This document shows, piece by piece, positions 22,277 through 40,007 of a stretch of 64,000 bases of DNA. Source of the stretch: Deferrisoma camini S3R1 (GTDB taxonomy: Bacteria; Desulfobacterota; Deferrisomatia; Deferrisomatales; Deferrisomataceae). The notes below the pieces were generated by a model that was not told the DNA's origin, did not search any database, and saw only the letters and a program-made list of their open reading frames with translations. How positions within the stretch are numbered: position 1 is the first letter of the stretch; the number at the start of each line of letters is the position of its first letter. The translations under genes and the position numbers were made by a program. Location: positions 2,195,014-2,259,013 of the forward strand of contig NZ_JAFN01000001.1 of the NCBI RefSeq assembly GCF_000526155.1, read 5' to 3'.

Positions 22277-22315
22277 CAGGGTTTCCCCCCACACACACGA
22301 AAAAGGAGGTGGACC

Positions 22316-23497: not shown

Positions 23498-23730
23498 TGG
23501 CATGGTTCGCACGTTCGTGCATTCCCCGACTCGGTGGGGCTGGGGGCCCCTCCTTCGCTGAACGGCCTCGCAGGGGCCACCGCGGCGCGGTCCGCTGCGA
23601 CGCGTGAGAGCACGCGCCGCGGCCGCTCCCCTGACGCCGGGCGGCCCGGGCTGCTCGGCCGTCGCGCTTCGTCGGAACCCCCAGCCCCACCGCCGGAATG
23701 GATATACGTTTCTGCGGAACGGAACACTAG
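23494..23730 (+). mobile_element. 237-bp MITE-like element, copy A
   Basis: It begins CTAGTG and ends CACTAG, and closely matches the reverse complement of 49203-49439, a copy of exactly equal length. By eye only about seven mismatches occur over the central 160 bp; the outer arms are more diverged. A perfect 15-bp inner inverted repeat (23532-23546 with 23678-23692) and a central GC-rich hairpin make it foldable. The first CTAG includes the TAG stop of the upstream gene. CTAG at both ends looks like a 4-bp target duplication of the IS5 kind. No transposase is encoded; any reading frame in it is incidental. Confidence 0.85.
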
Positions 23731-23797
23731 CCCACCGCGGCAGGGGAGGGCCTGGCAGGGCCCTCCCCTGCCGGAACCCGTCCTTCGGAGGAGCCCG

Positions 23798-24655
23798 ATG
23801 TTCTCGCTCGCCGTCGTCAACGGCCTGGTGATGGGCACGATCTACGCCCTGGCGGCCCTGGGGGTGTCGCTGGTGGTGGGGATCATGAACGTGATCAACT
23901 TCGCCCACGGCGAGTTCTACATCCTGGCGGGCTACTTCAGCTACCTGTTCGCCGACGCCCTGGGGTGGCCCGTGGCGGCGGCCATGGTCGCGGCCGTGGC
24001 GCTGGTGTTCGCGGCCGGGGTGCTGGTGGAGTACCTGCTCATCCGGCCCACCTACGGCAACGACATGTACTCGCTCATCCTGACCTTCATCCTGTCCATC
24101 GTGCTCCAGAACGCGTACCTGCACATCTTCGGCCCCTACCCCAAGAAGCCCCCCAACTGGGTCAAGGGCGCCACCAACTTCTTCGACCAGTTCTACTACG
24201 GCAACCAGCGGCTGGTGGCCCTGGCGGCCGGGGCGGCGGTCATCGGGGCGCTGTTCGTGCTCATCAAGACCACCTGGTTCGGCCGGGTGGTGCGGGCCAC
24301 GAGCCAGGACCGGGAGATGGCCGAGATGAACGGGGTGAACACCGTGGGGGTGAACCTGGTGAGCTTCGGGCTGGGCTGTGCCCTGGCCGGGGCGGCCGGG
24401 GTGATCCTGAGCCCCATCTTCCCGGTGACCCCCACCGCGGGGGTGGCGGTGGCCCTCACCTCGTTCGTGATCGTGGTGCTGGGGGGCATGGGCTCGCTGT
24501 GGGGGTGCGTGGTGGGCGGGCTGGTGATCGGGCTGGTGGAGAGCTTCGGCGCCACCTACGTGTCCACCGGATACAAGCACCTGTTCGACTTCGTGATCCT
24601 GCTCGGGGTGCTGCTGGTGCGGCCGTCGGGCCTGTTCGGAAAGCCCGCCGCATGA
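23798..24655 (+). CDS. Branched-chain amino acid-type ABC transporter permease, LivH class
   Basis: A 285-residue inner-membrane permease with about eight hydrophobic segments. NFAHGEFYILAGYF near the N-terminus and the GVAVALTSFVIVVLGGMGSLWG stretch are LivH hallmarks. ATG 23798 is chosen because of CGGAGGAG 4 nt upstream. The reading frame continues upstream through the repeat element, but that part is not protein-like. It is first of four tightly spaced transport genes (H, M, G, F). Confidence 0.93.
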   Translation: MFSLAVVNGLVMGTIYALAALGVSLVVGIMNVINFAHGEFYILAGYFSYLFADALGWPVAAAMVAAVALVFAAGVLVEYLLIRPTYGNDMYSLILTFILSIVLQNAYLHIFGPYPKKPPNWVKGATNFFDQFYYGNQRLVALAAGAAVIGALFVLIKTTWFGRVVRATSQDREMAEMNGVNTVGVNLVSFGLGCALAGAAGVILSPIFPVTPTAGVAVALTSFVIVVLGGMGSLWGCVVGGLVIGLVESFGATYVSTGYKHLFDFVILLGVLLVRPSGLFGKPAA

Positions 24656-24680
24656 CCCTGGACTCAAGGGAGACCCGACC

Positions 24681-25634
24681 GTGAAACGCCTCCGTTGGCG
24701 CTGGTGGATCGGGGCCGCCGCGTTCGTGGCCGTGCCGTTCGGCCTCGACAGCTACGCGCTGCACGTCGCCATCACCTGCCTGTTCTACGCGATGATGGCC
24801 ACCAGCTGGAACCTGATCGCCGGATACACCGGCCAGGTGTCGTTCGCCCACGCCGCGTTCGCCGGCATCGGCGCCTACACCTCGGGGCTCCTGGCCGTGA
24901 AGGCCGGGGTGCCGCCCTGGATCGGGATCGCCGTGGGCACGGCCGCGGCCGGGGCGTTCGGCTTGATGCTCGGGGTGCTGTGCCTGCGGATGGGGGGCAT
25001 CTACCTGTCCCTGGCCACCCTCGCGTTCTCCGAGATCCTGTCGATCGTGGTCCAGAACGAGTACGAGGTCACGCGGGGAACCATGGGCCTCCAGATCCCG
25101 GGGCTGCTCCCCACCTACTCGAAGCTCAGCTACTACTTCGTGTTCCTGGCCGCGGCCGTGGGCACGGTGTGGCTGGTGGTGCGGCTGATCCGCTCGGACC
25201 TGGGTCTCAGCTTCCGGGCCGTGCAGAACGACGAGGCCGCGGCCGCGGCCAGCGGGGTGGACGTGGTGCGGATCCGCGTCCTGGCGTTCACGGTGTCGAG
25301 CGCCCTGGCCGGGCTTGCCGGCGGTCTGTTCGGGCACTACCTGCTCCTCATCACCCCGACCCTCCTGTCCCTCGACCAGATGTTCCTGGTGCTGGCCATG
25401 GCGGTGATCGGGGGGCTGGGCTCCCTGTGGGGGCCGGTGGCCGGGGCGTTCTTCCTGGAGATCCTCTCCGAGTACATCCGGGCGTGGGGCGAGTACCACG
25501 TGCTGGCGTTCGGCCTGGTGGCCCTGGTGGTCGCCCGGTTCGCGCCGGACGGCCTCGCAGGGCTCGCGCGGGCGGTGCGCAAGGGCCCGCCCGCCCCGGG
25601 GAGGCCGGCGCCGGCCGCCGGGGGGAGGAGCTGA
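24681..25634 (+). CDS. Branched-chain amino acid-type ABC transporter permease, LivM class
   Basis: A 317-residue inner-membrane permease with multiple hydrophobic helices and the LivM hallmarks MATSWNLIAGYTGQVSFAHA, GGIYLSLATLAFSEI and MAVIGGLGSLWGPVAGAFF. It would pair with the LivH-type subunit as the heterodimeric channel. The C-terminal 25 residues are Pro/Arg-rich. It is 25 nt after livH and 1 nt before the ATPase gene. Confidence 0.93.
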   Translation: MKRLRWRWWIGAAAFVAVPFGLDSYALHVAITCLFYAMMATSWNLIAGYTGQVSFAHAAFAGIGAYTSGLLAVKAGVPPWIGIAVGTAAAGAFGLMLGVLCLRMGGIYLSLATLAFSEILSIVVQNEYEVTRGTMGLQIPGLLPTYSKLSYYFVFLAAAVGTVWLVVRLIRSDLGLSFRAVQNDEAAAAASGVDVVRIRVLAFTVSSALAGLAGGLFGHYLLLITPTLLSLDQMFLVLAMAVIGGLGSLWGPVAGAFFLEILSEYIRAWGEYHVLAFGLVALVVARFAPDGLAGLARAVRKGPPAPGRPAPAAGGRS

Positions 25635-25635
25635 G

Positions 25636-26355
25636 ATGCCGATCCTGGTCGGTAGGGGGCTCGGCAAATCGTTCGGCGGGGTCACCGCGCTCGACGGCGT
25701 GGACTTCGCCCTGGAGGCGGGCCAGATCACGGGGCTCATCGGCCCCAACGGCGCGGGCAAAACCACCCTGTTCAACGTGGTCGCCGGGGCCCTGAGGCCC
25801 ACGGCCGGCAAGGTGCTCCTCGACGGCACTGACATCACGGGTTGGAGGCCCAACCGGATCTGCCGGTCCGGCGTCGCCCGCACCTTCCAGATCACCCGAC
25901 CGTTCGCGGACATGACCTGCCTCGAGAACGTGGGCGTGGCCGTGGTGAACCGCCGGCACCCCCCGGCCGGGGGGTGGGAGGACGAGGCCGCCGCCCTCCT
26001 GGAGACCGTGGGCCTCGGGGGCCGGGCGGCGACCCGGGCGGGCCAGCTCAACCTGATCGAGAAGAAGAAGCTCGAGATGGCCCGGGCCCTCGCCTCGAAC
26101 CCCCGGGTTCTGCTCCTGGACGAGGTGCTGGGGGGCTTGAACACGGCCGAGATCGGCCAGGCCGTGGACCTGATCCTGCGGCTCCGGGAGGAGGTGGGGG
26201 TCACCGTGTTCTGGATCGAGCACATCATGGGGGCCATCATGCGGGCCGCCGACCGGATCATCGTGCTGGACCAGGGCCGGAAGCTCATGGAGGGCACCCC
26301 CGAGGAGGTGGCCCACGACCCCAGGGTGATCCAGGCCTACCTCGGGCACAGCTGA
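25636..26355 (+). CDS. Branched-chain amino acid-type ABC transporter ATP-binding protein, LivG class
   Basis: A 239-residue ATPase. Walker A is GPNGAGKTT, Walker B is VLLLDEVLGGL. The usual LSGGQ signature is degenerate, reading AGQLNLIEKKKLEMA at its place, as in other LivG proteins that have the LNLIEKKKLE-type variant. FQITRPFADMTCLENV and WIEHIMGAIM (switch His) are typical. It powers uptake with the second ATPase encoded immediately downstream. Confidence 0.93.
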   Translation: MPILVGRGLGKSFGGVTALDGVDFALEAGQITGLIGPNGAGKTTLFNVVAGALRPTAGKVLLDGTDITGWRPNRICRSGVARTFQITRPFADMTCLENVGVAVVNRRHPPAGGWEDEAAALLETVGLGGRAATRAGQLNLIEKKKLEMARALASNPRVLLLDEVLGGLNTAEIGQAVDLILRLREEVGVTVFWIEHIMGAIMRAADRIIVLDQGRKLMEGTPEEVAHDPRVIQAYLGHS

Positions 26356-26359
26356 AGGG

Positions 26360-27067
26360 ATGCCGATGCTGGAAGTGGCGGGCGTGGACGTGTTCCGGGG
26401 GGAGAGCCAGGTCCTGTGGGACGTGTCGCTGCGGGTGGGACCCGGCGAGCGGGTGGCCGTGCTCGGCAGCAACGGCGCCGGCAAGAGCACGCTGATCGCG
26501 GCGATCCTGGGCGCCGTGCGGCCCAGCCGGGGAGACATCCGGTTCCGGGGCCAGAGCCTGGTGGGGAAACGGCCGTACCAGGTGGCCCGGATGGGCATCG
26601 CCATCGTGCCGGAGGGCCGGCGGGTGTACCGGGACATGACCGTGTACGAGAACCTGGAGATGGGCGCCTACCCGCTCCGGGCGAGGGCCGCGCTCCGCGA
26701 GTCCATGGACCGGGTGTTCTCCCTGTTCCCGGTGTTGGCGGAGCGCCGCAGCCAGAGCGCCGGCTCCCTGTCGGGCGGCCAGCAGCAGATGCTGGCGATC
26801 GGCCGGGCCCTGATGAGCCGGCCCGAGTTCCTCATCGTGGACGAGCTGAGCCTGGGGCTCGCGCCCCTGGTGACCCAGGAGATCTTTGCGGCGCTCGACT
26901 CCCTGGGCGAGGGGATCACGGTGATGCTGGTGGAGCAGAACGTCGAGATGGCCCTGCGCCACTCCCAGCGGGCCTACGTGCTGGAGAGCGGCCGGGTGGC
27001 GAGGGAAGGCCGCTCCGCGGATCTCGCGGACGACCCGGAGATCCGGCGGGCGTACCTAGGGCTTTGA
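26360..27067 (+). CDS. Branched-chain amino acid-type ABC transporter ATP-binding protein, LivF class
   Basis: A 235-residue ATPase with Walker A GSNGAGKST, signature LSGGQQQMLAIGRALM, Walker B FLIVDELSLGLAP, and the LivF-typical GIAIVPEGRRVYRDMTVYENL. Two close ATG codons (26360 and 26366) are possible starts; AAGGG upstream favours the second slightly. It ends 13 nt before the aldehyde oxidoreductase gene, so transport and catabolism are likely one transcript. Confidence 0.93.
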   Translation: MPMLEVAGVDVFRGESQVLWDVSLRVGPGERVAVLGSNGAGKSTLIAAILGAVRPSRGDIRFRGQSLVGKRPYQVARMGIAIVPEGRRVYRDMTVYENLEMGAYPLRARAALRESMDRVFSLFPVLAERRSQSAGSLSGGQQQMLAIGRALMSRPEFLIVDELSLGLAPLVTQEIFAALDSLGEGITVMLVEQNVEMALRHSQRAYVLESGRVAREGRSADLADDPEIRRAYLGL

Positions 27068-27080
27068 GAGGAGGGTCCCC

Positions 27081-28910
27081 ATGTACGGATGGCACGGAAA
27101 ACTGCTTCGGGTGAACCTGAGCCGGAGGACGACCTCGTGGGAGGAGATCCCGCCCGCGGTGCTCAAGGACTACGTGGGCGCCCGGGGTCTGGGCATCCGC
27201 TACCTGCTGGACGAGGTGGACCCCGCCTGCGACCCCCTGGGCCCGGAGAACAAGCTGATCTTCTCCACCGGCCCCCTCACCGGCACCCGGGCGCCCACCG
27301 GGGCCCGGTACATCGTCACCACCAAGTCCCCGTTGACCGGCGTGCTCACCTGCGCCAACTCGGGGGGGTTCTTCCCTGCCGAGCTTCGGCGGACCGGGGT
27401 GGACGCGATCGTGTTCGAGGGCTGCTCGGACGAGCCGGTGTACCTGTGGCTGTCGGACGGCCGGGCCGAGCTGCGGCCGGCCCGCGACCTGTGGGGAAAG
27501 ACGACCCACGAGACCACCGACGCCCTGGTCGCGGCCCACGGCCCGGGAACCCGGGTGGCCTGCATCGGCCCCGCCGGCGAGAACCGGGTGCGGTTCGCGT
27601 CGATCATGAACGACAAGGACCGGGCCGCCGGCCGGTCGGGCGTGGGGGCGGTGATGGGGGCCAAGAACCTCAAGGCCGTGGCGGTCCGGGGGACTACCCC
27701 GGTCCGCCTCCACGACGAGGAGGCCTTCCGGTCCGCGGTGAAGCGCTACCTGGACCGGTTCCACGAGACCTACCGAGACGAGCCCCCGCCCCTGCGCAGC
27801 TACGGCACCGCGGTCACCGTGATGGGCACCCAGAACGTGGGCGTGTTCCCCACCCGGAACTTCCAGACGGGCCAGTTCGAGCAGTGGGAGGCCCTCCACG
27901 GGGAGACCCTGACCCAGCGGTTCCTGGTGAAACCCAAGGCCTGCTTCTCGTGCCCGATCGCCTGCGGCCGGGTCACCCGGGTGGACGAGCCCGGGTACGA
28001 GGGCGAGGGGGAGGGCCCGGAGTACGAGACCGTCTACTCCCTGGGGAGCGACTGCGGGGTGGCCGACCTGGCCGCCGTGACCAAGGCCAACTACCTGTGC
28101 AACGAGCTCGGCCTCGACACCATCAGCATGGGCGCCACGATCGCCTGCGCCATGGAGATGTTCGAGAAGGGCATCCTGACCGAGGCCGCGGTGGGCATGG
28201 AGCTGCGCTTCGGCAACGCCCGGGCGCTGGTGGAGCTGACCCGGATGACCGCCCACCGGGAAGGGTTCGGCGATCTCCTGGCCGAGGGGAGCCTGCGGCT
28301 GGCCACCCGGTTCGGCCACCCCGAGTTGGCGGTGACGGCCCGGGGGCAGGAGTTCCCCGGCTACGATCCCCGGGGCGAGCAGGGCATGGGCCTCGCCTAC
28401 GCCACCTCGCCCATCGGTGCGTCCCACATGCGGGGGGACCCGGCGTACATCGAGATCCTGGGCGTGCCCACCCTGATCGACCCCCTGGAGTGGAAGGGCA
28501 AGGGCGAGCTGGTGGCCGAGTGGCAGAACACCTTCGCCCTGATCGACGCCGCCGGCCTGTGCGTGTTCTTCACGATCCGAAACCTGGTCACCCCCGACCG
28601 GCACGTGCGCCCCACCGGCATCCTCGAGCTCCTGAACGCGGCCACCGGCGCCGGGTACACCCTGGAGGAGCTGGAGCGGGCCGGGGAGCGGATCTTCAAC
28701 GCCGAACGCCTGTTCATGATCCGGGCCGGGTCGGGGGGGAAGGACGACACCCTGCCGCCCCGGATGCTCCGGGAGCCCATGCCCGACGGGCCGGCCAAGG
28801 GCATGGTGGTGCACCTGTCCGAGATGCTCGAGGAGTACTACCGGTTCCGGGGTTGGGACGCCGAGGGGAACCCCACCCCAGAGAAGCTCCGGGAACTCGG
28901 GCTGGGGTGA
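27081..28910 (+). CDS. Aldehyde:ferredoxin oxidoreductase family protein (tungsten/molybdopterin)
   Basis: A 609-residue AOR-family enzyme, normal length. The N-terminal domain has MYGWHGKLLRVNLS and YVGARGLGIRYL; GPLTGTRAPTGARY and SGVGAVMGAKNLKA follow. The [4Fe-4S] ligands are CFSCPIAC (Cys288, 291, 295) and a later Cys in DAAGLCVF. Such enzymes oxidise aldehydes to acids, reducing ferredoxin, with tungsten bispyranopterin. In this operon it could oxidise the semialdehyde made by the adjacent aminotransferase; this is an inference. Strong ribosome site (GAGAGGAGG). Confidence 0.94.
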   Translation: MYGWHGKLLRVNLSRRTTSWEEIPPAVLKDYVGARGLGIRYLLDEVDPACDPLGPENKLIFSTGPLTGTRAPTGARYIVTTKSPLTGVLTCANSGGFFPAELRRTGVDAIVFEGCSDEPVYLWLSDGRAELRPARDLWGKTTHETTDALVAAHGPGTRVACIGPAGENRVRFASIMNDKDRAAGRSGVGAVMGAKNLKAVAVRGTTPVRLHDEEAFRSAVKRYLDRFHETYRDEPPPLRSYGTAVTVMGTQNVGVFPTRNFQTGQFEQWEALHGETLTQRFLVKPKACFSCPIACGRVTRVDEPGYEGEGEGPEYETVYSLGSDCGVADLAAVTKANYLCNELGLDTISMGATIACAMEMFEKGILTEAAVGMELRFGNARALVELTRMTAHREGFGDLLAEGSLRLATRFGHPELAVTARGQEFPGYDPRGEQGMGLAYATSPIGASHMRGDPAYIEILGVPTLIDPLEWKGKGELVAEWQNTFALIDAAGLCVFFTIRNLVTPDRHVRPTGILELLNAATGAGYTLEELERAGERIFNAERLFMIRAGSGGKDDTLPPRMLREPMPDGPAKGMVVHLSEMLEEYYRFRGWDAEGNPTPEKLRELGLG

Positions 28911-28917
28911 TCGTCCC

Positions 28918-30258
28918 ATGTCTTTCGTGTTCCTCCGGAAGCCCGGGCGCCCCTACCCCGTGGCGGCCCGGGCCGAGGGCGTGTGGATCTGGGACACCGA
29001 GGGCCGGCGCTACCTCGACGGGTGCTCCTCGGCCTGCGTGGTGGGCATCGGCCACGGCGTGCGGGAGGTGGAGGAGGCCGCCCTGGCCCAGCGCCGGGCC
29101 GTGAGCTTCGTGCACGGCGCCACGTTCCTGACCGAGGCGTGCGAGCGGTTCGCGGCGCGGGTGGCCGGCCTCGCCTCCGACCCCCATCTGGACAAGGTGT
29201 ATCTCGTGTCCACCGGCACCGAGGCGGTGGAGACGGCGGTGAAGCTCGCCCGCCAGTACTGGCAGGAGGTGGGCGAGCCCAGGCGGCACAAGGTGATCTC
29301 CCGCTGGGGCTCGTACCACGGCAACACCGTGGGCGCGCTGGCCTACGGAGGCCATGCGGGCCGGCGGCGGCCCTATGACCCCCTCATCCCCCACACCCCC
29401 CACATCGAGCCGTGCTACTGCTACCGGTGCCCCTACGGGCTGCAGCCCGACCGGTGCGGCCTGGTGTGCGCCGAGGCCCTGGACCGTGCGGTGCGGTTCG
29501 AGGGCCCGGAGACCGTGGCCGCGTTCCTGGCCGAGCCGGTCGTGGGCGCCACCCTGGGCGCGGCCGTACCCCCGCCGGGCTACTGGCCCCGCATCCGGGA
29601 GATCTGCGACGCACACGGCATCCTCCTGATCGCGGACGAGGTGCTCACCGGAGCCGGCCGCACCGGCAGGGGGCTGGCGCTGGAGCACTGGGGCGTCTCG
29701 GCGGACCTCGTGACCCTGGCCAAGGGGCTCGCGAGCGGGTACGCGCCGGTGGGCGCGGTGCTCGCCCACGCGAAGATCCACGATGCCATCCGGGACGGAT
29801 CAGGGGCCTTCGTCCACGGGTTCACCTACAACCAGCACCCGGTCGCCATGGCGGTGGGGGACCGGGTGCTCCGGTACCTGGAGGAGCACCGTCTGATCGA
29901 CCGGGCCGCCCGGATGGGCACGGTGCTCCTCGAGCGGCTCCGTACCCTCTCGGACCTGCCCGTGGTGGGCGACGTGCGGGGCATCGGTCTCCTGGCCGGG
30001 ATCGAGTTCGTGGCCGACCGGGATACCCGGGAGCCGTTTCCGGCCCAAGCCGGCTTCGCCTGGAGGGTGGGGGAGGAGGCCCGGAAGCGCGGGCTTCTCA
30101 CCTACCCCGGCACCGGCTGCACGGACGGCCTCCGGGGTGACCACGTGCTGATCTGCCCGCCGTTCGTGATCGACGAAGACGAGATCTCGTTCCTGGTGGA
30201 CCGCCTGCGGGAGGCCGTGGAGGCCGCCGGCAACCCCGCGGATGAACGCGGTTCCTGA
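28918..30258 (+). CDS. Class III aminotransferase (omega-amino acid type)
   Basis: A 446-residue PLP enzyme. Landmarks are STGTEAVETAVKLAR, RWGSYHGNTVGAL, the cofactor-binding IADEVLTGAGRTG with its Asp, the PLP lysine in TLAKGLASGYAPVGAV, and HGFTYNQHPVAMA. An insertion rich in cysteines (CYCYRCPYGLQPDRCGLVC) near residue 165 is shared by one subgroup of this family. Members remove a terminal amino group from omega-amino acids, diamines or amino alcohols. It lies 7 nt after the AOR gene and ends the first catabolic block; a GC hairpin follows. Confidence 0.92.
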   Translation: MSFVFLRKPGRPYPVAARAEGVWIWDTEGRRYLDGCSSACVVGIGHGVREVEEAALAQRRAVSFVHGATFLTEACERFAARVAGLASDPHLDKVYLVSTGTEAVETAVKLARQYWQEVGEPRRHKVISRWGSYHGNTVGALAYGGHAGRRRPYDPLIPHTPHIEPCYCYRCPYGLQPDRCGLVCAEALDRAVRFEGPETVAAFLAEPVVGATLGAAVPPPGYWPRIREICDAHGILLIADEVLTGAGRTGRGLALEHWGVSADLVTLAKGLASGYAPVGAVLAHAKIHDAIRDGSGAFVHGFTYNQHPVAMAVGDRVLRYLEEHRLIDRAARMGTVLLERLRTLSDLPVVGDVRGIGLLAGIEFVADRDTREPFPAQAGFAWRVGEEARKRGLLTYPGTGCTDGLRGDHVLICPPFVIDEDEISFLVDRLREAVEAAGNPADERGS

Positions 30259-30269
30259 CGCCACGACAT

Positions 30270-30292
30270 GGGCGGGCCGGACGGGCCCGCCC
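30270..30292 (+). terminator. GC-rich hairpin after the class III aminotransferase
   Basis: A 9-bp GGGCGGGCC/GGCCCGCCC stem with a 5-nt loop, 11 nt after the stop codon. There is no T-run, so it may be a weak or Rho-assisted terminator separating the two catabolic blocks. Confidence 0.55.
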
Positions 30293-30337
30293 ACGATGCC
30301 CAGCCTTCCTCCCACACACCAAAACATCTTTTGATGC

Positions 30338-30366
30338 TTGACAGGAATTTCTGAAGCAGATAGGAT
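30338..30366 (+). promoter_or_regulatory. Sigma70 promoter of the Dpp-type block
   Basis: TTGACA (30338-30343), a 17-nt spacer and TAGGAT (30361-30366) in an A/T-richer stretch, about 65 nt upstream of the first ATPase gene. No other promoter of similar quality is seen until the end of the block at 39.5 kb. Confidence 0.75.
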
Positions 30367-30440
30367 CCGCCGCACAAGGATCAATCTTTCCCATACGGAA
30401 ACATCCGCCCGATCCACCGTCTCCGGCCCCAGGAAGGTCC

Positions 30441-31415
30441 ATGGCCCTCCTCGAGATCCGCGGCCTCCAGACATACTTCAAGACCCCCCAGGGAACCGCC
30501 CGTGCGGTGGACGGCGTCGACCTGACGGTGCGCGAGGGGGAGGTGCTGGGGGTGGTCGGCGAGTCGGGGTGCGGCAAGAGCGTCATGGCCCTGTCCGTGC
30601 TGCGGCTCCTGCCCCGGCCCCCGGCGTTCTTCGCCGGAGGCCAGATCCGATTCCGGGGCACCGATCTTCTTCGGCTCTCCGACGAGGAGATCCGAAGGAT
30701 CCGGGGCAACCGGATCAGCATGATCTTCCAAGAGCCCATGACCGCCCTGAACCCCGTGTTCACCGTGGGGAACCAGCTCTCCGAGGTGTTCCGGACGCAC
30801 CAGCGGCTCTCCCGGGCCGAGGCGCGCCAGCGGGCCGTGGAGATGCTGGGTCTGGTGGGCATCCCTTCCCCCCAGCGCCGGTACCGGTCTTACCCCCACG
30901 AGATGTCCGGCGGCATGCGCCAGCGGGTGATGATCGCCATGGCCCTGGCGTGCCGGCCCGACCTGCTGCTCGCGGACGAACCCACCACGGCCCTGGACGT
31001 GACGATCCAGGCCCAGATCCTGGACCTGATGAAGGAGCTGCGGGAGCAGCTGGGCACGGCCATCGTGCTCATCACCCACGACATGGGGGTGGTGGCCGAG
31101 ATGGCCGACCGGGTGGCCGTGATGTACCTGGGCCGGGTGGTCGAGGAGGCCGAGACCCGGGAGCTGTTCGAGCGCCCCCTGCACCCCTACACCCGGGGGC
31201 TCTTGCGCGCCATCCCGTCGGTGTCACAGGAGAAGAGCGAGCTGTTCGAGATCCCGGGCACCGTTCCGAGCCCGGTGAACCTGCCCGACGGGTGTCCGTT
31301 CCACCCGCGGTGCCCCGACCGCCAGGAGGGGTGCCGGCGCGAGCGGCCCGTGCTGGAGGAGCTCCATGCCGGCCACCGGGTCGCCTGCTGGGTGGCCCAG
31401 GGGGGAAGCGCCTGA
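30441..31415 (+). CDS. Dipeptide/oligopeptide-type ABC transporter ATP-binding protein, DppD class
   Basis: A 324-residue ATPase. Walker A is GESGCGKSV, signature [15 protein letters not shown], Walker [13 protein letters not shown]. The C-terminal oligopeptide-transporter extension carries [14 protein letters not shown], a cysteine motif that binds a [4Fe-4S] cluster in several Dpp ATPases. It pairs with the next gene, whose ATG overlaps this stop codon (TGATG). Cargo may be peptides, nickel chelates, opines or other amino compounds. Confidence 0.93.
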
Positions 31416-32452
31416 TGGCCCCCCTCCTGGAGGTCCGGGACCTGGTCAAGCACTTCCCGGTGCGTACGGGTTTTTTCGGCCGTCGAACCGCACGGGTGCA
31501 CGCGGTGGACGGCATCTCCCTCACCCTGAACGAGGGGGAGGTCCTCGGCCTGGTGGGCGAGTCCGGCTGCGGCAAGTCCACGGCCGGCCGCGCCATCCTC
31601 CGGCTGATCGAGCCCACCTCCGGCACCATCCGGTTCGACGGCCGGGACGTGCTCGCCCTCTCCCCCCAGGAACTCCGGCCGCTTCGGCGGGAGATGCAGA
31701 TCGTGTTCCAGGACCCGTTCGGGTCCCTGAACCCCCGGCTCACCGTGGGCCAGATCGTGGAGGAGCCCCTGCGCACCCACCACTGGGGCCGCCGGAGCGA
31801 ACAGCGGGACCGGGTTGCCGAGGCCCTGCGCACGGTGGGGCTCCTTCCCGAGCACATGGACCGGTTCCCCCACGAGTTCTCCGGCGGCCAGCGCCAGCGG
31901 ATCGCCATCGCCCGGGCCCTGGTGCTGCAGCCCCGTTTGGTGGTGGCGGACGAGCCGGTCTCGGCCCTGGACGTGTCGGTGCAGGCCCAGGTGCTGAACC
32001 TGCTCAAGCGCCTCCAGGCGGAGATGGGCGTGGCCTACCTGTTCGTCTCCCACGACCTGGGGGTGGTGCGCCACATGAGCCACCGGGTGGCCGTGATGTA
32101 CCTGGGCCGGATCGTGGAGGAGGGTCCCACGAGGGCCCTGTTCGAGGACCCGCTCCACCCCTACACCCGGGCCCTGCTCGAGGCCGTGCCCCACCCCGAT
32201 CCGGGCCGGAGAGGTTCCAGGCCCGCCGTGCTCCGGGGGGACGTGCCGTCGCCCCTGAACCCGCCCACGGGCTGCCGGTTCCATCCCCGGTGCCCCGAGC
32301 GCATGGACGTGTGCGGCCGGGAGATGCCTCCCTGCACCGAGATCCGACCGGGCCACGTGGTGGGATGCCACCTGTACGCCTCGGGAACCGGCCGACGGAA
32401 AGCGGGCCGTCGGCCCCTCGTCTCCACCCAGGGAAAGGAGGAAGAGCCATGA
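31415..32452 (+). CDS. Dipeptide/oligopeptide-type ABC transporter ATP-binding protein, DppF class
   Basis: A 345-residue ATPase. Walker A is GESGCGKST, signature [15 protein letters not shown], Walker [12 protein letters not shown]. The C-terminal [14 protein letters not shown] repeats the Fe-S-type cysteine motif of its partner. The start overlaps the previous stop by one base and its stop overlaps the binding-protein start (ATGA), which shows tight translational coupling. A Lys/Arg-rich tail follows the domain. Confidence 0.93.
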
Positions 32453-33945
32453 GACACCGCTGCTTCGTTCCGTTGTTCGCGGCCGTCTGCCTGGTGCTCG
32501 GCGCGCTCCCGGGCCACGCCCGGGACACCGACACCCTCGTGGTGGTCCAGGAGGCCGAGCCCGTGGGCCTGGACCTCATGCAGAGCTCCATCCAGACCAC
32601 GATGAGCGTGTGCTACAACATCCACGAGACCCTGTTCCACCCCCAGGAGGACGCCTCGGTCAAACCGGCCCTGGCCGAGCGGTGGGAAAAGGTGGACGAC
32701 CTCACCTGGAAGATCTACCTGCGCAAGGACGCCAAGTTCCACAACGGCGAACCGGTGACCGCCCAGGCCGTGAAGTTCTCCTTCGACCGGATCATGAACC
32801 CCGACTTCAAGTCCCCCCACCGGGGCAAGCTCTCCGCGTTCACCAAGCTGGAGGTGATCGACGACTACACCTTCACCATCTCCACGGAGAAGCCCTACGC
32901 GCCGGGCCTGTACATCCTGGGGTACTACCTGCCGATCGTGCCCCCCAAGTACGTCCAGGAGGTGGGGGACACCCAGTACAACATGAAGCCCGTGGGCGCC
33001 GGCCCGTACAAGCTGGCCAAGTGGGTCCGGGGTCAGGAGGTGGTGCTGGAGCGGTTCGAGGGGTACTACGGCCCCAAGCCCGCTTACAAGCGGGTGGTCT
33101 TCCGGGGGGTGCCCGAGGAGGCGGCGCGCATCGCTGCGGTGCTCACGGGCGAGGCCGACGTGGTGAGCGGCATCCCGGTCCATCAGCGCAAGCGGATCCT
33201 CGAGTCGGGCAAGGCCTACCTCACGAACCAGATGGGGGTGATGCCGTACCTGGGGCTCAACACGTACAAGCCCCCGTTCGACGACGTGCGGGTGCGCCAG
33301 GCCATGAACTACGCCATCAACCGCGAGCTCATCAACAAGGCCCTGTTCGACGGTAAGGCCATCCTGTGCGCCGGCCCCATCAGCCCCCGCACCTTTGGCG
33401 CGGACCCCACCCTGAAGCCCTACCCCTACGATCCTGAAAAGGCGAAGAAGCTCCTGGCCGAGGCCGGCTATCCCGACGGGTTCGAGGCCCGGTTGGCGTA
33501 CCCCACCTACATGTCCCAGATCCAGGAGCAGGCCGAGGCCATCGCCGCCGACCTGGCCAAGGTGGGGGTGCGGGTGAAGCTGGAGCCGTTCGAACGGTCC
33601 GTGATGTGGCAGCGGTACAAGCAGCGCAAGCACCAGATGTACATCTACTGGTGGGACGACGCCCCCGAACCCGACCGGTACATGTACGCCCTGTTCCACT
33701 CCAAGAGCCGCGACTACTACTACAAGAACCCCAAGGTGGACGAACTGCTCGACAAGGGGCGCACCATCCTCGACCGCCAGGAGCGGGCCAAGGTGTATCA
33801 CCAGATCGACCGGCTTCTGTACGAGGACGCCCCCTGGGTCTACCTGTACGTGGTCCCCGAGGTGTTCGCGGTGGCCAACGACGTGGACTACCAGGGCCGG
33901 CGCGACGGCTTCCTGAACATGCGCTGGGCCAAGCCCAAGAAGTAG
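32449..33945 (+). CDS. Dipeptide/oligopeptide-type ABC transporter substrate-binding protein
   Basis: A 498-residue periplasmic binding protein of the large (SBP_bac_5) family. A signal peptide ([18 protein letters not shown]) precedes the mature start. It has the usual [21 protein letters not shown] segment and the [12 protein letters not shown] stretch. ATG is chosen by the strong AAAGGAGGAAG site. Ligands of this family include peptides, nickel, opines and sugars. The position between both ATPases and both permeases is unusual compared with A-B-C-D-F order but keeps all five components. Confidence 0.93.
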
Positions 33946-34010
33946 AAACCCCGGGGGCGGGGCGCCGGCCTCGCCCCCCTTTCCCCCTTTGATCGAGAAC
34001 AGGACCGGCC

Positions 34011-34940
34011 GTGGGACGCTACATTCTAAAACGCCTATGGCACACCGTGTTCGTGCTGCTGGGCATCTCGGTGATCAGCTTCTTCTTCATCCGGCTGTCC
34101 GGCGACCCCGTGATGCTCCTGCTGCCCCAGGACGCCACCATGCAGGAGATCGAGGAGATGCGCGAGCGCCTGGGGCTGAACGACCCGCTCCCGGTCCAGT
34201 ACGCCCGCTTCCTGGGCAACGCCATCCAGGGCGACCTGGGGGAGTCCCTGTACTACCACACCCCGGCGCTGGGCCTGATCCTGGAACGCCTCCCCGCCAG
34301 CCTGGAACTGGCCGTGGCCGCCATGGGCATCGCCCTGGCGGTGGCGGTGCCGCTCGGGATCCTGTCGGCCGTGAAACGGGGGTCCCTGTTGGACCTGGGG
34401 AGCATGGTGGCCGCCCTGTTCGGGCTGTCCATGCCCCACTTCTGGCTCGGCATCATGATGATCCTCCTGTTTTCCGTGAAGCTCGGCTGGCTGCCCACCT
34501 CGGGGCGGGGCACCTGGGCGCAGCTCGTGATGCCGGCCGTCTCGCTGGGGATGGGGCTCATGGCCATGTTCGCCCGGCTGACCCGGTCGGTGATGCTCGA
34601 GATCCTGGGGCTCGACTACGTGCGGACGGCCCGGGCCAAGGGGCTGCGGGAGCGGGTGGTCATCGGCAAGCACGCGCTCAAGAACGCCCTCATCCCGCTG
34701 GTCACCGTGGCCGGCATGCAGTTCGGGTTCCTCATCGGGGGCACGGTGATCATCGAGACCGTGTTCGCCTGGCCCGGCGTGGGCCGCCTGGTGGTGCAGT
34801 CCATCTTCAACCGCGACTACCCCCTGGTTCAGGCCTCGGTGCTGGTGCTCGCCGTGATCTTCGTGCTGGTGAACCTGCTCGTGGACCTGCTCTACGTGTA
34901 CCTGGATCCCCGGATCAGCTACCAGGAGGACCGGCCGTGA
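34011..34940 (+). CDS. Dipeptide/oligopeptide-type ABC transporter permease, DppB class
   Basis: A 309-residue inner-membrane permease with six hydrophobic segments. RYILKRLWHTVFVLLGISVISFFF begins the protein, with the family arrangement LGLNDPLPVQYARFLGNAIQGDLG; the EAA-type loop is DYVRTARAKGLRERVV. A GTG start follows a weak site. There is a 65-nt gap from the binding protein and a GTGA overlap with the next permease. Confidence 0.93.
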   Translation: MGRYILKRLWHTVFVLLGISVISFFFIRLSGDPVMLLLPQDATMQEIEEMRERLGLNDPLPVQYARFLGNAIQGDLGESLYYHTPALGLILERLPASLELAVAAMGIALAVAVPLGILSAVKRGSLLDLGSMVAALFGLSMPHFWLGIMMILLFSVKLGWLPTSGRGTWAQLVMPAVSLGMGLMAMFARLTRSVMLEILGLDYVRTARAKGLRERVVIGKHALKNALIPLVTVAGMQFGFLIGGTVIIETVFAWPGVGRLVVQSIFNRDYPLVQASVLVLAVIFVLVNLLVDLLYVYLDPRISYQEDRP

Positions 34941-35824
34941 CCGCCGCGGCCCCGGCCCTGCGCCGGCTTGGGGATACGCTGACGGAACTCCAGCGCCACC
35001 GCCAGGCCCTAGTGGGGGGGGCGTTGCTCGCCCTCATCGTGGGCACGAGCCTCCTGTTCCCGCTGTTCTACCCCAAGGACCCGCTCGCCCAGGACCTCCT
35101 GGCGCGGCTCCAGCCCCCGTTCTGGCAGGAGGGTGGGTCCCTGGCCCATCCCCTGGGCACCGACAACCTGGGCAGGGACGTGCTGGCCCGCATCCTGTAC
35201 GGCAGCCGGGTGTCCCTGATGGTGGGGTTCACCTCGGTGCTGGTGGCCGAGCTGGCGGGCATCGTGCTGGGGCTCGTGTCCGGCTTCTACGGAGGACGGG
35301 TGGACTCCGTGATCATGCGCACGGCCGACGTGTTCATGGCATACCCGTTCATGCTGCTCACCATCTCGGTGATCGCCGTGCTCGGCAGCTCCATGACCAA
35401 CCTGATCCTGGTGCTAGGGCTGTCGGACTGGACCACCTACGCCCGCACCGTGCGGGGCAGCGTGCTGTCGATCCGGGAGAAGGAGTTCGTGGAGGCCTCC
35501 CGCGCCGTGGGCACCCCCGGCCGGGTGATCCTGTGGCGCCACGTGCTGCCCAACGTGGTGTCCCCCGTGGTGGTGCTGGGGACGCTGCGGGTCGCCAGCG
35601 TGATCATCTGGGAGAGCGGCCTGTCCTTCCTGGGCATGGGCGTGCCGCCCCCCATGCCCACCTGGGGCCGGATGCTGGCCGAGGGACGGGTGTACATCAC
35701 CGAGGCGTGGTGGCTCGTCACCTTCCCGGGTCTGGCCATCATGGTGACCATTCTGGCGATCAACCTCCTGGGCGACGGCCTCCGGGACGCCCTGGACCCC
35801 CGGCTGCGTAACATCGTGAGCTGA
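34937..35824 (+). CDS. Dipeptide/oligopeptide-type ABC transporter permease, DppC class
   Basis: A 295-residue inner-membrane permease. HPLGTDNLGRDVLARILYGSR, GLVSGFYGG and the EAA loop EFVEASRAVGTPGRVILWRH are DppC features. The GTG start overlaps the DppB stop by 4 nt. It completes the transporter encoded from 30.4 kb; enzyme and regulator genes follow at once. Confidence 0.93.
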   Translation: MTAAAPALRRLGDTLTELQRHRQALVGGALLALIVGTSLLFPLFYPKDPLAQDLLARLQPPFWQEGGSLAHPLGTDNLGRDVLARILYGSRVSLMVGFTSVLVAELAGIVLGLVSGFYGGRVDSVIMRTADVFMAYPFMLLTISVIAVLGSSMTNLILVLGLSDWTTYARTVRGSVLSIREKEFVEASRAVGTPGRVILWRHVLPNVVSPVVVLGTLRVASVIIWESGLSFLGMGVPPPMPTWGRMLAEGRVYITEAWWLVTFPGLAIMVTILAINLLGDGLRDALDPRLRNIVS

Positions 35825-35848
35825 GTTCAACAACGGAAAGGGACCTCG

Positions 35849-37012
35849 ATGAAGGCGCTCGTGCTCGGCATCGGTTTGCAAGGGAAGGCCGTGCTCCATG
35901 ACCTGGAGCGGTCTCCTCTGGTGGACGAGATCGTGGCCGCGGACCTGGAAGCCGGACCCGTGGAGAACCACATCCGGAAAGGGGGGCTTCGGAAGACCCG
36001 GGCCGTGGCGGTGGACGCATCCGACCCCTCCGGCCTCCGGGATGCGATCCGGCGGTCCGGGGCAAGGGTAGTGGTGTGCATGCTGCCCCCGTCCCTGGGT
36101 CTGGCCGTGGCCCGGGCCGCGGTGGACGAGGGCGTGGCGTTCGTGAGCACCAGCTACGCCGGCCCCATCGCGGACCTGGACGCGGACGCCCGGGAACGCG
36201 GCGTGACCGTGCTGCCCGAGATGGGGTTCGATCCCGGCATCGACCTGGTGCTGGCGGCCCTGGCCCTGGGGGAGCTGGACCGGGTGGTGGGGCTGCGGTC
36301 CTACGGGGGGGGCCTCCCCGAGCCCACGGCGTGCGACAACCCCCTCAAGTACAAGATCACCTGGACCTTCGAGGGGGTGCTCCGGGCCTACACCCGGCCG
36401 GCCCGCCTGCTCGAGGACGGGAGGGAGACCCGGATCCCCGGCACCGAACTGTTCCGCCCCGACCACGTCCACACCCTGGCGATCCCGGGCCTGGGGGCGA
36501 TGGAGGCGTTTCCCAACGGAGACGCCGTGCGGTACGCGGAGGCGTTCGGCCTGGGGCCGGAGCTGCAACACATGGGGCGGTATGCCCTTCGGTGGCCGGG
36601 CCACTCCGCTTTCTGGTACCCTCTGGTGCGCCTCGGCTTTCTCGACGAGGACCCCGTCGAGGTGGACGGCGCCCTTGTGTCGCCCCGCCGGTTTCTGGTG
36701 GAGCACCTCACCCCGCGCCTTCAGTTCCGCCCGGACGAACGAGACGTGGCCGTGCTGCGGGTCCACGCCTGGGGTGAGCGGGAAGGGCGGAAGCACGAGG
36801 TGGTGTACGACCTGATCGACTACCGCGACCTGGACACGGGTTTGTTCGCCATGAACCGAACCGTGGGCTACACCGCGAGCATCGCGGCGCAGATGGTGAT
36901 GGCGGGGGAGATCTCCCGGGCCGGCGTGCTCTCCCCCGTGCGGGACGTGCCCGGGCACAGGCTGCTCGAGGAACTCCGGGCGCGGGGCATCCACGTGGTG
37001 CGAAGGACGTGA
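35849..37012 (+). CDS. Saccharopine dehydrogenase-family / lysine 6-dehydrogenase-like oxidoreductase
   Basis: A 387-residue NAD(P)-dependent enzyme, the same length as Geobacillus lysine 6-dehydrogenase (about 385), with matching landmarks. These are N-terminal VLGIGLQGKAVLHDLE, VLPEMGFDPGIDLVL, GGGLPEP with NPLKYKITWTFEGVLRAY, the RWPGHSAFWYPLV region and RRFLVEHLTPRL. Family members deaminate lysine's side chain or oxidatively cleave secondary amines such as saccharopine. Located directly behind a Dpp/opine-class transporter, it may act on the imported compound. AAAGGGA ribosome site; the stop overlaps the next start (GTGA). Confidence 0.85.
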   Translation: MKALVLGIGLQGKAVLHDLERSPLVDEIVAADLEAGPVENHIRKGGLRKTRAVAVDASDPSGLRDAIRRSGARVVVCMLPPSLGLAVARAAVDEGVAFVSTSYAGPIADLDADARERGVTVLPEMGFDPGIDLVLAALALGELDRVVGLRSYGGGLPEPTACDNPLKYKITWTFEGVLRAYTRPARLLEDGRETRIPGTELFRPDHVHTLAIPGLGAMEAFPNGDAVRYAEAFGLGPELQHMGRYALRWPGHSAFWYPLVRLGFLDEDPVEVDGALVSPRRFLVEHLTPRLQFRPDERDVAVLRVHAWGEREGRKHEVVYDLIDYRDLDTGLFAMNRTVGYTASIAAQMVMAGEISRAGVLSPVRDVPGHRLLEELRARGIHVVRRT

Positions 37013-38217
37013 CCCCCGCCCCTCCCTCCCCCGACGAGCCGCCTGCCGAGGCGCTCATCCAACGGAACGTGGGCGTCCGCATCCGGGAGCTCCGCAAGGC
37101 GCGGGGGCTCAGCGGATACGCCCTCGCGCGGGCGGCCGGGATCTCCCAGAGCCAGCTCTCCAAGATCGAGACCGGCAAGGCCACCCTCTCGGTCGCGGTG
37201 CTGGCCCGGCTGTGCCAGGCCCTGGACCGGCCCCTCAGCTACCTGTTCCAGAGCGAGGAGGAGATGCCCCGGGTCCTGGGCACGCTCACCACCGTGGCGG
37301 GGCCGGAGAGCGAGGCGCTGAGGGAGTTTGCCGACGAGGTCCGGCGTCGCACCGCCGGCCGCATCACCTTGATCCCGCTGCGGGCCTCCCAGCTCGGTCC
37401 GGCCGAGGACCAGGTCGAGCACCTCCGCCAGGGGGCGTTGGACCTGTTCGTGGAGGAGATCCACCGCTTCGCCCGCCTCGCTCCGGACGCCCGCCTGTTC
37501 GGGATTCCCTACGTTTTCCGCTCCGAGGACCACCGGCAGGCCATGCTGTCGAGTTCCTGGTTCCGGCGGGAGGTGTTCGAACGGCTCCTCGCCCGGGGCG
37601 TGCGCATCCTGAACCCCCGCTGGAACTGGCAGCGGGGCGTGGAGTACGTGCTCGTGTCCCGCCGTGCGCTGTTCTCCCCTGCGGACGTGCGGGGCCTGCG
37701 GGTGCGGGTCTCCGAAGCCTCCGGGCTGGGCAGGCTGTGGGAGGAGATGGGCGCGGAGCCCGTGGTTCTGCCCTGGGCCGACGTCAAGCGGGCGCTGCGG
37801 GACGGGCGCATCGACGTGCTGCCCACCCACAAGTCCCACCTCTACCCCATGGGCCTGTGCCGGTACGCCCCGTATGTGACCCGCCTCGGGGATCTCCCCT
37901 CCACCCTGGCGGTGGCGGTGAGCGAGGCCAAGTACCAGGCCCTGCCCCCCCACATCCAGGAAGGCATCCGCCAGGCGTGCGAGGTGGCGGGAGACCGGTT
38001 CACCGAGATCGTCACCGAAGCTGAACGGCGCAACGAGCCCCTGAACATCGCCCGGCACCGGGCGTCGTACCTCACCGTGGACACCCGGCCGTGGCGCGAG
38101 GCGTTCGCCCGGGGGGTGCGCCGGATGCTCGACGCCGGAGACCTGCCGCCCCGGGCGTGGGAGGCTGCCGAGCGGGCGGCCCGAGGGCATTCCGATGGAC
38201 TCCCCCTGGACGGTTGA
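37009..38217 (+). CDS. XRE-family helix-turn-helix protein fused to a DctP (TRAP solute-binding) domain
   Basis: A 402-residue protein with two recognisable parts. Residues about 22-80 form an XRE/HTH_3 domain (VGVRIRELRKARGLSGYALA, then GISQSQLSKIETGKATLSV). From about 95 to 385 the sequence follows the DctP/TRAP periplasmic binding fold: LREFADEVRRRTAGRITLIP, LRQGALDLFVEEI, RLFGIPYVFRSEDHR, then PADVRGLRVRVSEASG, in which a conserved Arg normally grips the substrate carboxylate, and the ALRDGRIDVLPTHKSH region. No signal peptide or membrane helix exists, so it should be cytoplasmic. I infer a one-component regulator that senses a carboxylate. No TRAP transporter genes are present. GTGA overlap upstream and 23-nt overlap downstream tie it to the operon. 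Confidence 0.88.
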   Translation: MTPAPPSPDEPPAEALIQRNVGVRIRELRKARGLSGYALARAAGISQSQLSKIETGKATLSVAVLARLCQALDRPLSYLFQSEEEMPRVLGTLTTVAGPESEALREFADEVRRRTAGRITLIPLRASQLGPAEDQVEHLRQGALDLFVEEIHRFARLAPDARLFGIPYVFRSEDHRQAMLSSSWFRREVFERLLARGVRILNPRWNWQRGVEYVLVSRRALFSPADVRGLRVRVSEASGLGRLWEEMGAEPVVLPWADVKRALRDGRIDVLPTHKSHLYPMGLCRYAPYVTRLGDLPSTLAVAVSEAKYQALPPHIQEGIRQACEVAGDRFTEIVTEAERRNEPLNIARHRASYLTVDTRPWREAFARGVRRMLDAGDLPPRAWEAAERAARGHSDGLPLDG

Positions 38218-39544
38218 ACGGCTGGCCGAGTTCGCCGTGGGGGCATCGGCGGAAGACCTGCCTCCCACGGCCACCGAGGCGGCGGGCCGGTGCCTGATCG
38301 ACACGTTGGGCGCGGCCGCGGCCGGGCGGCCCACTCCGGCCGCCAAGGCCCTGGCCGGGTTCTCAACCCGGGCCTTCGCCCCCGGTCCCTGCACCGTCTG
38401 GTACGAGGGCGCAGCCCTGACCCCGGAGGCCGCGGCCGTGGCCAACAGCGCGGCAGCCAGCGCTCTGGACCTGGACGACGGGCACCGGGCGGCCGGCGGG
38501 CACCCCGGGGCGGCCGTTCTCCCGGCCGCCCTGGCGGCCGCAGAGCTCGTCGGTGCCCCGGGGAGGGGCGTGCTCGAGGCCGTGGTCGTGGGGTACGAGG
38601 TGGGGGTCCGGGTGGCGGCCGGCCGCAACCCCGCCACCCTCGACACCTACTCCACGGGCCGCTGGGCCGCCTACGCGGCCGCGGCGGCCGCCGGCCGCCT
38701 GTACGGGTTCTCCCCGGACCTCCTCGCCCACGCGCTCGCCGTGGCCGGCGTCCTCTCCCCAGGGCTCTCGGCGGCCGGCTACAGCCGCCTGATGGGCAAC
38801 AGCACCAAAGAGGGCATTCCCTGGGCCGTGTTCACCGGCTTGGCCGCCCTGGACCTGGTCCGGAGGGGGTGGACCGGCCCCCTCGACATCCTGGACCATC
38901 CGGACTACTACGATGCGGACCGGATCGCGAACGGATTGGGGGGGGCTCCCTTTGCCGTGGAGGGAGTGTACTTCAAGCCCTACGGGTGCTGTCGGTGGAT
39001 CCACGCGGCCCTGGACGCCCTGACCGCTCTCCTGTCGGAGCACCGGATCTCCCCCGAGGAGATCGAGGAGATCCGGGTCGACACCTTCGGCCGGGCCGTG
39101 AGCCTCTCCAACGAACCGGCCCCTTCCACCCTGGAGGGGGCCCAGTACAGCATCCCGTTCTGCCTTGCCCTCGCCGCCGTGCACGGACCCCAGGCCCTGC
39201 TTCCCCTAGCTGCCGAACGCCTCCGGGATCCACCGGTGCTGGAGCTGGCCCACAGGGTCCGTCTGTCGGTGGACCCGGAGCTGGACTCATTGTTCCCCCA
39301 GCAGACGCCGGCCCGGGTGGTCCTTTCCACCCGCGGACGCCGCCTGAATCGGCGGGTGGACACCCCCAAGGGGGATGCGGGCAACCCCCTGAGCCGGGCG
39401 GCCCTGGAGGCTAAGTTCCGTTCCTTGGCACTCTGGGGGGGAGTGTCGCAGGAACGGGCCGATCGAATCTTAACCGCGGCGGGCGAACTCTCATTCCACA
39501 GGGTTACCTCGCTCATGGAACTCCTCCGGCCCTCAGCACCCTGA
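38195..39544 (+). CDS. MmgE/PrpD family protein
   Basis: A 449-residue member of the family that includes 2-methylcitrate dehydratase, cis-aconitate decarboxylase and iminodisuccinate epimerase. It matches in DTLGAAAAGRPTPAAKALAG, SAAASALDLDDGHRAAGGHPG (active-site Asp/His region), EGIPWAVFTGLAALDLVRRGWTGP, YFKPYGCCRWIHAALDAL and the C-terminal NRRVDTPKGDAGNPLSRAALEAKF segment. With no methylcitrate synthase or methylisocitrate lyase nearby, a propionate role is not supported; a dehydratase or epimerase acting on the transported compound is more likely. It overlaps the regulator gene by 23 nt. Confidence 0.88.
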   Translation: MDSPWTVERLAEFAVGASAEDLPPTATEAAGRCLIDTLGAAAAGRPTPAAKALAGFSTRAFAPGPCTVWYEGAALTPEAAAVANSAAASALDLDDGHRAAGGHPGAAVLPAALAAAELVGAPGRGVLEAVVVGYEVGVRVAAGRNPATLDTYSTGRWAAYAAAAAAGRLYGFSPDLLAHALAVAGVLSPGLSAAGYSRLMGNSTKEGIPWAVFTGLAALDLVRRGWTGPLDILDHPDYYDADRIANGLGGAPFAVEGVYFKPYGCCRWIHAALDALTALLSEHRISPEEIEEIRVDTFGRAVSLSNEPAPSTLEGAQYSIPFCLALAAVHGPQALLPLAAERLRDPPVLELAHRVRLSVDPELDSLFPQQTPARVVLSTRGRRLNRRVDTPKGDAGNPLSRAALEAKFRSLALWGGVSQERADRILTAAGELSFHRVTSLMELLRPSAP

Positions 39545-39873
39545 GGGGAAGCCCTTTGAAAGGCGGCAGCACCTCGCCTTTCCCTGCCTCCACACGGTCC
39601 GCGCCTCGCGGCCCGGAAGCCCGATCGCGCACCTTTCTCGCCAAGCCTTGACACAAATTTGGGAGCGCGGACAGGGGTCCCGGCCAGACCTCGGTCATCT
39701 TGACCAATTGCTGAGTACGGCCAGAAACCTGGGGGACGATTTTTTTCGATGCCCCCCGATGTCACCCGGTGGACCAGGATCCGCCAAGAAGCTCACGATA
39801 CTTCCCACGTCGCTTTCGCTCCACAGTTGACAGCGTCGCTTACGGCGCTGCGCGCCATGCCCGGCGCACGATG
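39545..39873. other. Intergenic region between the MmgE/PrpD gene and the tRNA-Pro terminator
   Basis: No protein-coding or RNA gene is recognised in these 329 nt. An 8-bp inverted repeat GAAAGGCG/CGCCTTTC just after the MmgE/PrpD stop could be a weak terminator. Lower-GC patches (around 39650-39740) hold TTGACA- and TTGACC-like boxes without convincing -10 partners. Confidence 0.5.
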
Positions 39874-39909
39874 AAAAAGGGCCTGCGGGTTTCAACCCGC
39901 AGGCCCTTT
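39874..39909 (-). terminator. Rho-independent terminator after tRNA-Pro
   Basis: A 13-14 bp stem ending in a run of five T's on the minus strand, 10 nt beyond the CCA end of tRNA-Pro. The plus-strand reading is also terminator-like, so it can act on both sides. Confidence 0.85.
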
Positions 39910-39919
39910 GGCTTTGTGA

Positions 39920-39996
39920 TGGTCGGGACGAGAGGATTCGAACCTCCGACCCCCTGAACCCCATTCAGGTGCGCTACCAGACTGCGCCACGTCCCG
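39920..39996 (-). tRNA. tRNA-Pro (anticodon GGG)
   Basis: 77 nt with encoded CCA. The acceptor CGGGACG pairs with CGTCCCG, the anticodon stem CCTGA/TCAGG encloses ATGGGGT giving anticodon GGG, and the T arm is GGAGG-TTCGAAT-CCTCT with one G-T. It is the last transcribed unit of the minus-strand translation cluster; the merR-like gene ends just 11 nt upstream. Confidence 0.96.
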
Positions 39997-40007
39997 ACAC
40001 GGATGGT

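Follow-up and report, generated by a model that had tools for sequence, protein, structure and literature searches.

A DctP solute-binding domain joined to an XRE DNA-binding domain: a probable one-component regulator encoded within an Opp/Dpp-type uptake operon of Deferrisoma camini S3R1

The window, i.e., the whole 64,000-nucleotide stretch of the Deferrisoma camini S3R1 genome that was analyzed, carries on its forward strand a run of genes for an Opp/Dpp-type ABC importer, two enzymes, and a protein combining an XRE helix-turn-helix (HTH) with a DctP domain, hereafter XRE-DctP. The features are as follows:

30335..30347, no strand assigned: candidate operator TGCTTGACAGGAA (consensus TTCYTGWCARGAA), from promoter comparison, centred on the -35 box
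30338..30366, +: sigma-70-type promoter TTGACA-17-TAGGAT, the sole match of this type in 27000-40000
30441..31415, +: OppD/DppD-type ABC ATPase (profile match), first gene of the predicted target operon
31415..32452, +: OppF/DppF-type ABC ATPase (sequence and position)
32449..33945, +: SBP_bac_5-type exported binding protein (signal peptide, position, and visible similarity to the Pfam-confirmed L009 and L011 proteins)
34011..34940, +: OppB/DppB-type permease (Pfam)
34937..35824, +: OppC/DppC-type permease (sequence and position)
35849..37012, +: saccharopine-dehydrogenase-family oxidoreductase, SDH (Pfam)
37009..38217, +: XRE-DctP, putative one-component regulator of 402 aa (HTH 25-79, linker ~80-97, DctP sensor 98-372)
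37081..37245, +: XRE/HTH_3 DNA-binding domain (residues 25-79)
37300..38124, +: DctP sensor domain (residues 98-372)
38195..39544, +: MmgE/PrpD-family enzyme (Pfam)

Translation of the open reading frame at 37009-38217 revealed a GTG start and 402 codons with zero internal stops, and the overlaps of 4 nt with the upstream gene and 23 nt with the downstream gene point to an operon-like arrangement. According to Pfam, residues 25-79 match HTH_3 (E 2.9e-15; 56.5 bits vs. a curated threshold of 23) and residues 98-372 match DctP (PF03480; E 1.4e-40; profile positions 9-281 of 286), in agreement with an earlier note on this DNA, which had described an XRE/HTH_3 domain at about residues 22-80 continuing into a full DctP fold. 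The TRAP_S1 score from NCBIfam was 118 bits against a cut-off of 50, and the PDB sequence matches to residues ~97-369 obtained with phmmer were DctP/SiaP binding proteins (best E 5.8e-20). The AlphaFold2 model, computed from a 4-row alignment, was of mediocre confidence (pLDDT 61, pTM 0.59), and with this low mean confidence the domain join and a dimer are tentative; a scan of viral contigs for exported DctP relatives, aimed at deepening the structure alignment, returned nothing. Despite the pLDDT of 61, the model retrieved TRAP DctP binding proteins as all of the top Foldseek matches in the PDB (E 2.9e-13; target TM-score <=0.80). Regarding export, XRE-DctP shows no hydrophobic N-terminal stretch: the maximal 15-residue Kyte-Doolittle value is 1.6 and is located in the HTH, whereas exported DctP proteins whose N-terminus is intact reach 1.8-3.2, so that, as judged from hydropathy, the lack of an export signal described previously is borne out.

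Full-length orthologues with the same end-to-end architecture were identified in five other genomes, namely a Desulfobacteraceae MAG (genome G396, locus L009), Tistlia consotensis (L010), Ferruginivarius sediminum (L011), a genome of the window's phylum (G012; L016/L033), and Mesorhizobium plasmids (L021/L022). In a six-row alignment, their identities to the window protein were 52, 50, 46, 46, and 36%, the last corresponding to Mesorhizobium. Conservation extends over both domains, the linker, and the HTH recognition region, the last of which, GISQSQLSKIETGKAT, is nearly invariant among the close orthologues. A fusion artefact, in which a frameshift or a sequencing error joined two genes, had been named in the earlier note as a way in which the architecture could be spurious; no point in favour of this or of an assembly join was found, and since the same fusion occurs in six genomes the probability of an artefact is negligible and the fusion is taken as real. 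Genome scans showed XRE-DctP to be a rare and patchy gene. Very few copies turned up in the window's phylum (395 genomes) or, for Tistlia, in its class (385) and its phylum (398), in scans that scored the four best candidates per genome and may miss divergent members. It was not found in G176 and G200, two congeners of the window genome, while distant Alphaproteobacteria carry it, and this patchiness suggests horizontal transfer. One scan of viral contigs with the family alignment revealed no XRE-DctP.

The genes around xre-dctP recur together with it. The order SDH, XRE-DctP, PrpD is repeated in L009 and G012, an SDH homologue is also found beside XRE-DctP in L010 (48-63% identity among the four genomes), and a PrpD homologue lies beside the Mesorhizobium gene (43-52% identity among four). 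The L011 locus is marked by the Opp binding protein, which shares 64-70% identity among L009, L011, and L033, while the Mesorhizobium neighbourhood is without Opp genes. The best matches of the window dehydrogenase were saccharopine dehydrogenases/reductases, and the best solved match of the window PrpD was iminodisuccinate epimerase (2hp0/2hp3). The gene had previously been placed inside a Dpp-enzyme operon; an Opp/Dpp-type importer is indeed encoded, and the enzymes are to be corrected to a saccharopine-dehydrogenase-like protein and an iminodisuccinate-epimerase-like PrpD. No TRAP permease (DctQ/DctM) was detected in the operon or among the other long window ORFs scanned, as had been claimed, nor was one detected among the scanned L009 and L011 neighbours. 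In L010, a TRAP operon is situated 6.5-9.4 kb from XRE-DctP on the opposite strand; its DctP binding protein is only 19% identical, which ruled it out as the cognate transporter. As a separate observation, an upstream cluster on the same strand of the window (21440-30258) encodes a beta-keto acid cleavage enzyme, a branched-chain-type ABC transporter, an aldehyde ferredoxin oxidoreductase, and a class III aminotransferase, and together with the saccharopine-dehydrogenase-like gene it hints at the breakdown of lysine or a related amino acid.

A second type of fusion, in which a GntR domain is joined to the DctP domain, was found at two loci:

L034 8334-9509, -: GntR-DctP fusion of genome G026 (GntR E 1e-21, DctP E 4.6e-46)
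L048 2241-3617, +: GntR-DctP fusion of genome G396, which also carries XRE-DctP

These proteins share the sensor fold and the missing export signal with XRE-DctP and differ in bearing a GntR winged helix. Downstream of the G026 gene lie a URO-D-family gene and then genes for an exported DctP protein, DctQ, and a DctM-like ORF, and over 299 residues the GntR-DctP sensor shares 48% identity with the binding protein that this adjoining TRAP operon encodes for export. The L048 gene adjoins a tartrate/isocitrate-type dehydrogenase gene, named from its sequence, and a serine-dehydratase-like gene. In a 21-row tree of DctP domains, each of the two fusion groups, XRE and GntR, formed one side of a branch, and the GntR group joined the exported DctP protein of G026 with a support of 96/92. 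The GntR-DctP sensor thus groups with the TRAP binding protein of its own locus, unlike that of XRE-DctP, which points to a separate capture. A common clade, as expected from a single origin of the two fusions, was rejected by the AU test (p=0.008), a value to be read with caution given the long branches, the 21 rows, and a grouping named after inspection of the tree. There is good evidence that HTH domains captured DctP at least twice, with XRE and GntR as separate events.

Concerning the ligand pocket, the phmmer alignment equates R209 of XRE-DctP with SiaP Arg127 and R233 with SiaP Arg147. In TRAP binding proteins, Arg147 serves as the filter that selects for carboxylates, and 96.8% of DctP sequences carry it (PMC4646407). 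The SiaP Glu186-Asn187 segment is replaced in the alignment by P272-T273, of which T273 is invariant, so that beyond its carboxylate the ligand probably differs. The same replacement could be expected if the DctP domain were a relic that no longer binds ligands and serves only in oligomerisation or protein contacts. We consider this very unlikely, as neither of the carboxylate-binding arginines varies among the six orthologues, even at 36% identity, and the presence of a GntR-DctP protein beside a related binding protein argues for sensing. As for the compound itself, iminodisuccinate and saccharopine are both secondary-amine polycarboxylates, so that an opine-like compound is likely imported by the operon, and the neighbouring genes indicate that the ligand of XRE-DctP is probably such an imported opine-like compound or an imino-carboxylate. 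The earlier proposal of a carboxylate tied to the operon agrees with the invariant arginine pair, and the gene set of the operon points away from a simple C4-dicarboxylate.

The palindrome TTCYTGWCARGAA was derived by eye from the compared promoter regions, and sites resembling it occur at the XRE-DctP operons or loci of all six genomes. The window site at 30335-30347, which falls inside the region 30259-30440 put forward in the earlier note, has one mismatch, as do those at L010 4582 and L011 4282; the site at G012 16388 has 0, and the two Mesorhizobium copies, at 11811 and 13147, are both perfect and flank the XRE-DctP gene (0.05 expected). Dinucleotide shuffles gave expected counts, at <=1 mismatch, of 0.01-0.12 per locus and 0.02 per 64 kb for the window, and the 4.24-Mb genome of the window contains three sites at this level, the one at 30335 being the sole intergenic one. 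Positions 4-9 of the palindrome correspond to the -35 hexamer, which is the consensus TTGACA in the window, and the window, L010, L011, G012, G396, and the Mesorhizobium 13147 site each have a -10-like hexamer 16-18 nt further downstream. At the divergent Mesorhizobium site, 11811, a clear -10 is missing at the normal spacing. As TTGACA within the palindrome could be present in any sigma-70 promoter, only 7 of the 13 positions constitute independent evidence, and these match at 6/7 or 7/7 at the sites given above. A CAAAA-N4-TTTTG inverted repeat (CAAAA-catc-TTTTG, 30320-30333), located directly 5' of the window -35 box, had been the first operator candidate and was discarded, as the other promoters that were inspected did not show it.

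The contig of L009 starts inside the operon, and its promoter was therefore not used in deriving the palindrome. A genome-wide scan of G396 revealed exactly one perfect TTCYTGWCARGAA, situated upstream of an oppD orthologue 67% identical to the window oppD and followed by TTGACA-17-TATCGT. The end of this contig matches the start of the L009 contig, the two sharing 141 identical bp. The location of the site was correctly predicted in a genome left out of the motif derivation.

In G012, the specificity of the palindrome is less clean: near-matches number 30 vs. 5 in the control, and a second perfect copy lies at L049 ~1501 (contig 74), before a gene for a branched-chain-amino-acid-type binding protein, where it is possibly a second target of XRE-DctP or the site of a different regulator. 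Additionally, a second XRE gene (L033 16548-17153, +) is divergent from the operator-bearing oppD promoter of this genome, and another regulator could bind similar sites there. This adjoining XRE gene and the many near-matches would be in line with a palindrome that belongs to another regulator common to the loci, with XRE-DctP acting elsewhere. Such an assignment appears quite unlikely, because XRE-DctP is the protein that all six loci have in common and because in Mesorhizobium, where Opp genes are lacking, the XRE-DctP gene itself lies between two perfect palindromes.

The position of the palindrome over the -35 box of the operon promoter suggests a repressor released by its ligand. Regulators of catabolic operons are often activators, and the -10 hexamers that follow the palindromes are imperfect, both of which would suit ligand-bound XRE-DctP recruiting or remodelling RNA polymerase at the -35 region. 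Activation is possible and less likely than repression; indeed, we regard it as unlikely, since wherever a promoter is recognisable the palindrome has its centre on the very -35 hexamer, which favours occlusion, and since the consensus -35 of the window should need little help. A cytoplasmic ligand-responsive repressor that binds TTCYTGWCARGAA over the -35 and is released by a carboxylate is thus a reading that we hold with considerable confidence. In the proposed mechanism, the XRE domain, as a dimer, would bind the palindrome at the promoter of the opp-SDH-xreDctP-prpD operon and block RNA polymerase. The DctP domain, presumably descended from a TRAP solute-binding protein through loss of the signal peptide, would hold the imported carboxylate through R233 and R209 and close around it; closure would weaken DNA binding, and the importer and catabolic enzymes would be induced by their own substrate. 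The location of the regulator gene inside the operon would also imply autoregulation. Binding of the palindrome by XRE-DctP, dimerisation, repression over activation, and a ligand of the opine-like or imino-dicarboxylate class are what we infer from these comparisons. The earlier note had suggested that a binding-protein fold serves as the sensor of a cytoplasmic regulator, and a one-component regulator of this kind is the best-supported reading of the sequence data, in view of the conserved fusion, the missing signal peptide, the invariant carboxylate-binding arginines, the lack of a cognate permease, and the candidate operator at the promoter of its own operon. XRE-DctP would probably function as a switch by which an incoming nutrient induces the uptake-and-breakdown operon that encodes the regulator.

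When compared to known systems, XRE-DctP resembles SiaP and other TRAP DctP proteins (PF03480), which bacteria normally export for the capture of organic acids destined for uptake, in the fold of its C-terminal domain and in the equivalents of Arg147 and Arg127, and differs from them in the absence of a signal peptide, the N-terminal XRE domain, the missing DctQM partner, and P272-T273. LacI and LysR are established cases of solute-binding folds serving as regulator sensors, LacI with a type I periplasmic-binding fold and LysR with an HTH and a type II fold. The idea of a helix-turn-helix plus a solute-binding fold controlling uptake and catabolism is shared with LacI/GalR, as previously noted; the DctP fold, however, is of type II, so that the parallel is as much with LysR as with LacI. 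Neither the LacI HTH with a type I periplasmic-binding domain nor the HTH_1 and LysR_substrate domains of LysR were detected in XRE-DctP by Pfam, which found HTH_3 and DctP instead, and compared with LysR the DctP domain is complete and represents another class of transporter. The HTH is related to those of XRE metabolic regulators such as PuuR, RamB, and the BzdR-like PRK08154, whose sensor regions are not DctP; NCBIfam matches to XRE regulators were below the cut-off and mainly confined to the HTH region.

It has been stated in general terms that the solute-binding domains of Pfam additionally function as sensors within transcription regulators (PMC9602780). A DctP domain joined to an HTH was not found described in the open-access full-text literature that was searched, and we think it likely that DctP-based transcription factors are undescribed one-component regulators, in which TRAP proteins moved to the cytoplasm and were joined to XRE and GntR domains with the pocket kept. 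If so, homologous domains would allow importer and regulator to recognise the same ligand, and another, unrelated transporter class would be added to the intracellular sensors beside LacI and LysR. The GntR-DctP gene with a related exported protein in the same cluster would make the step from transporter to regulator directly traceable. Prospects include biosensors for specific carboxylates, for which an operator is already predicted, and a route to the substrate of the opine-like uptake operon.

Finally, the XRE-DctP of Mesorhizobium japonicum pMLa (WP_044552287.1; L021 11971-13143) is named 'TRAP transporter substrate-binding protein DctP' in RefSeq. For a protein without an export signal, this is likely a misannotation, and such a label can mislead transport-gene counts.
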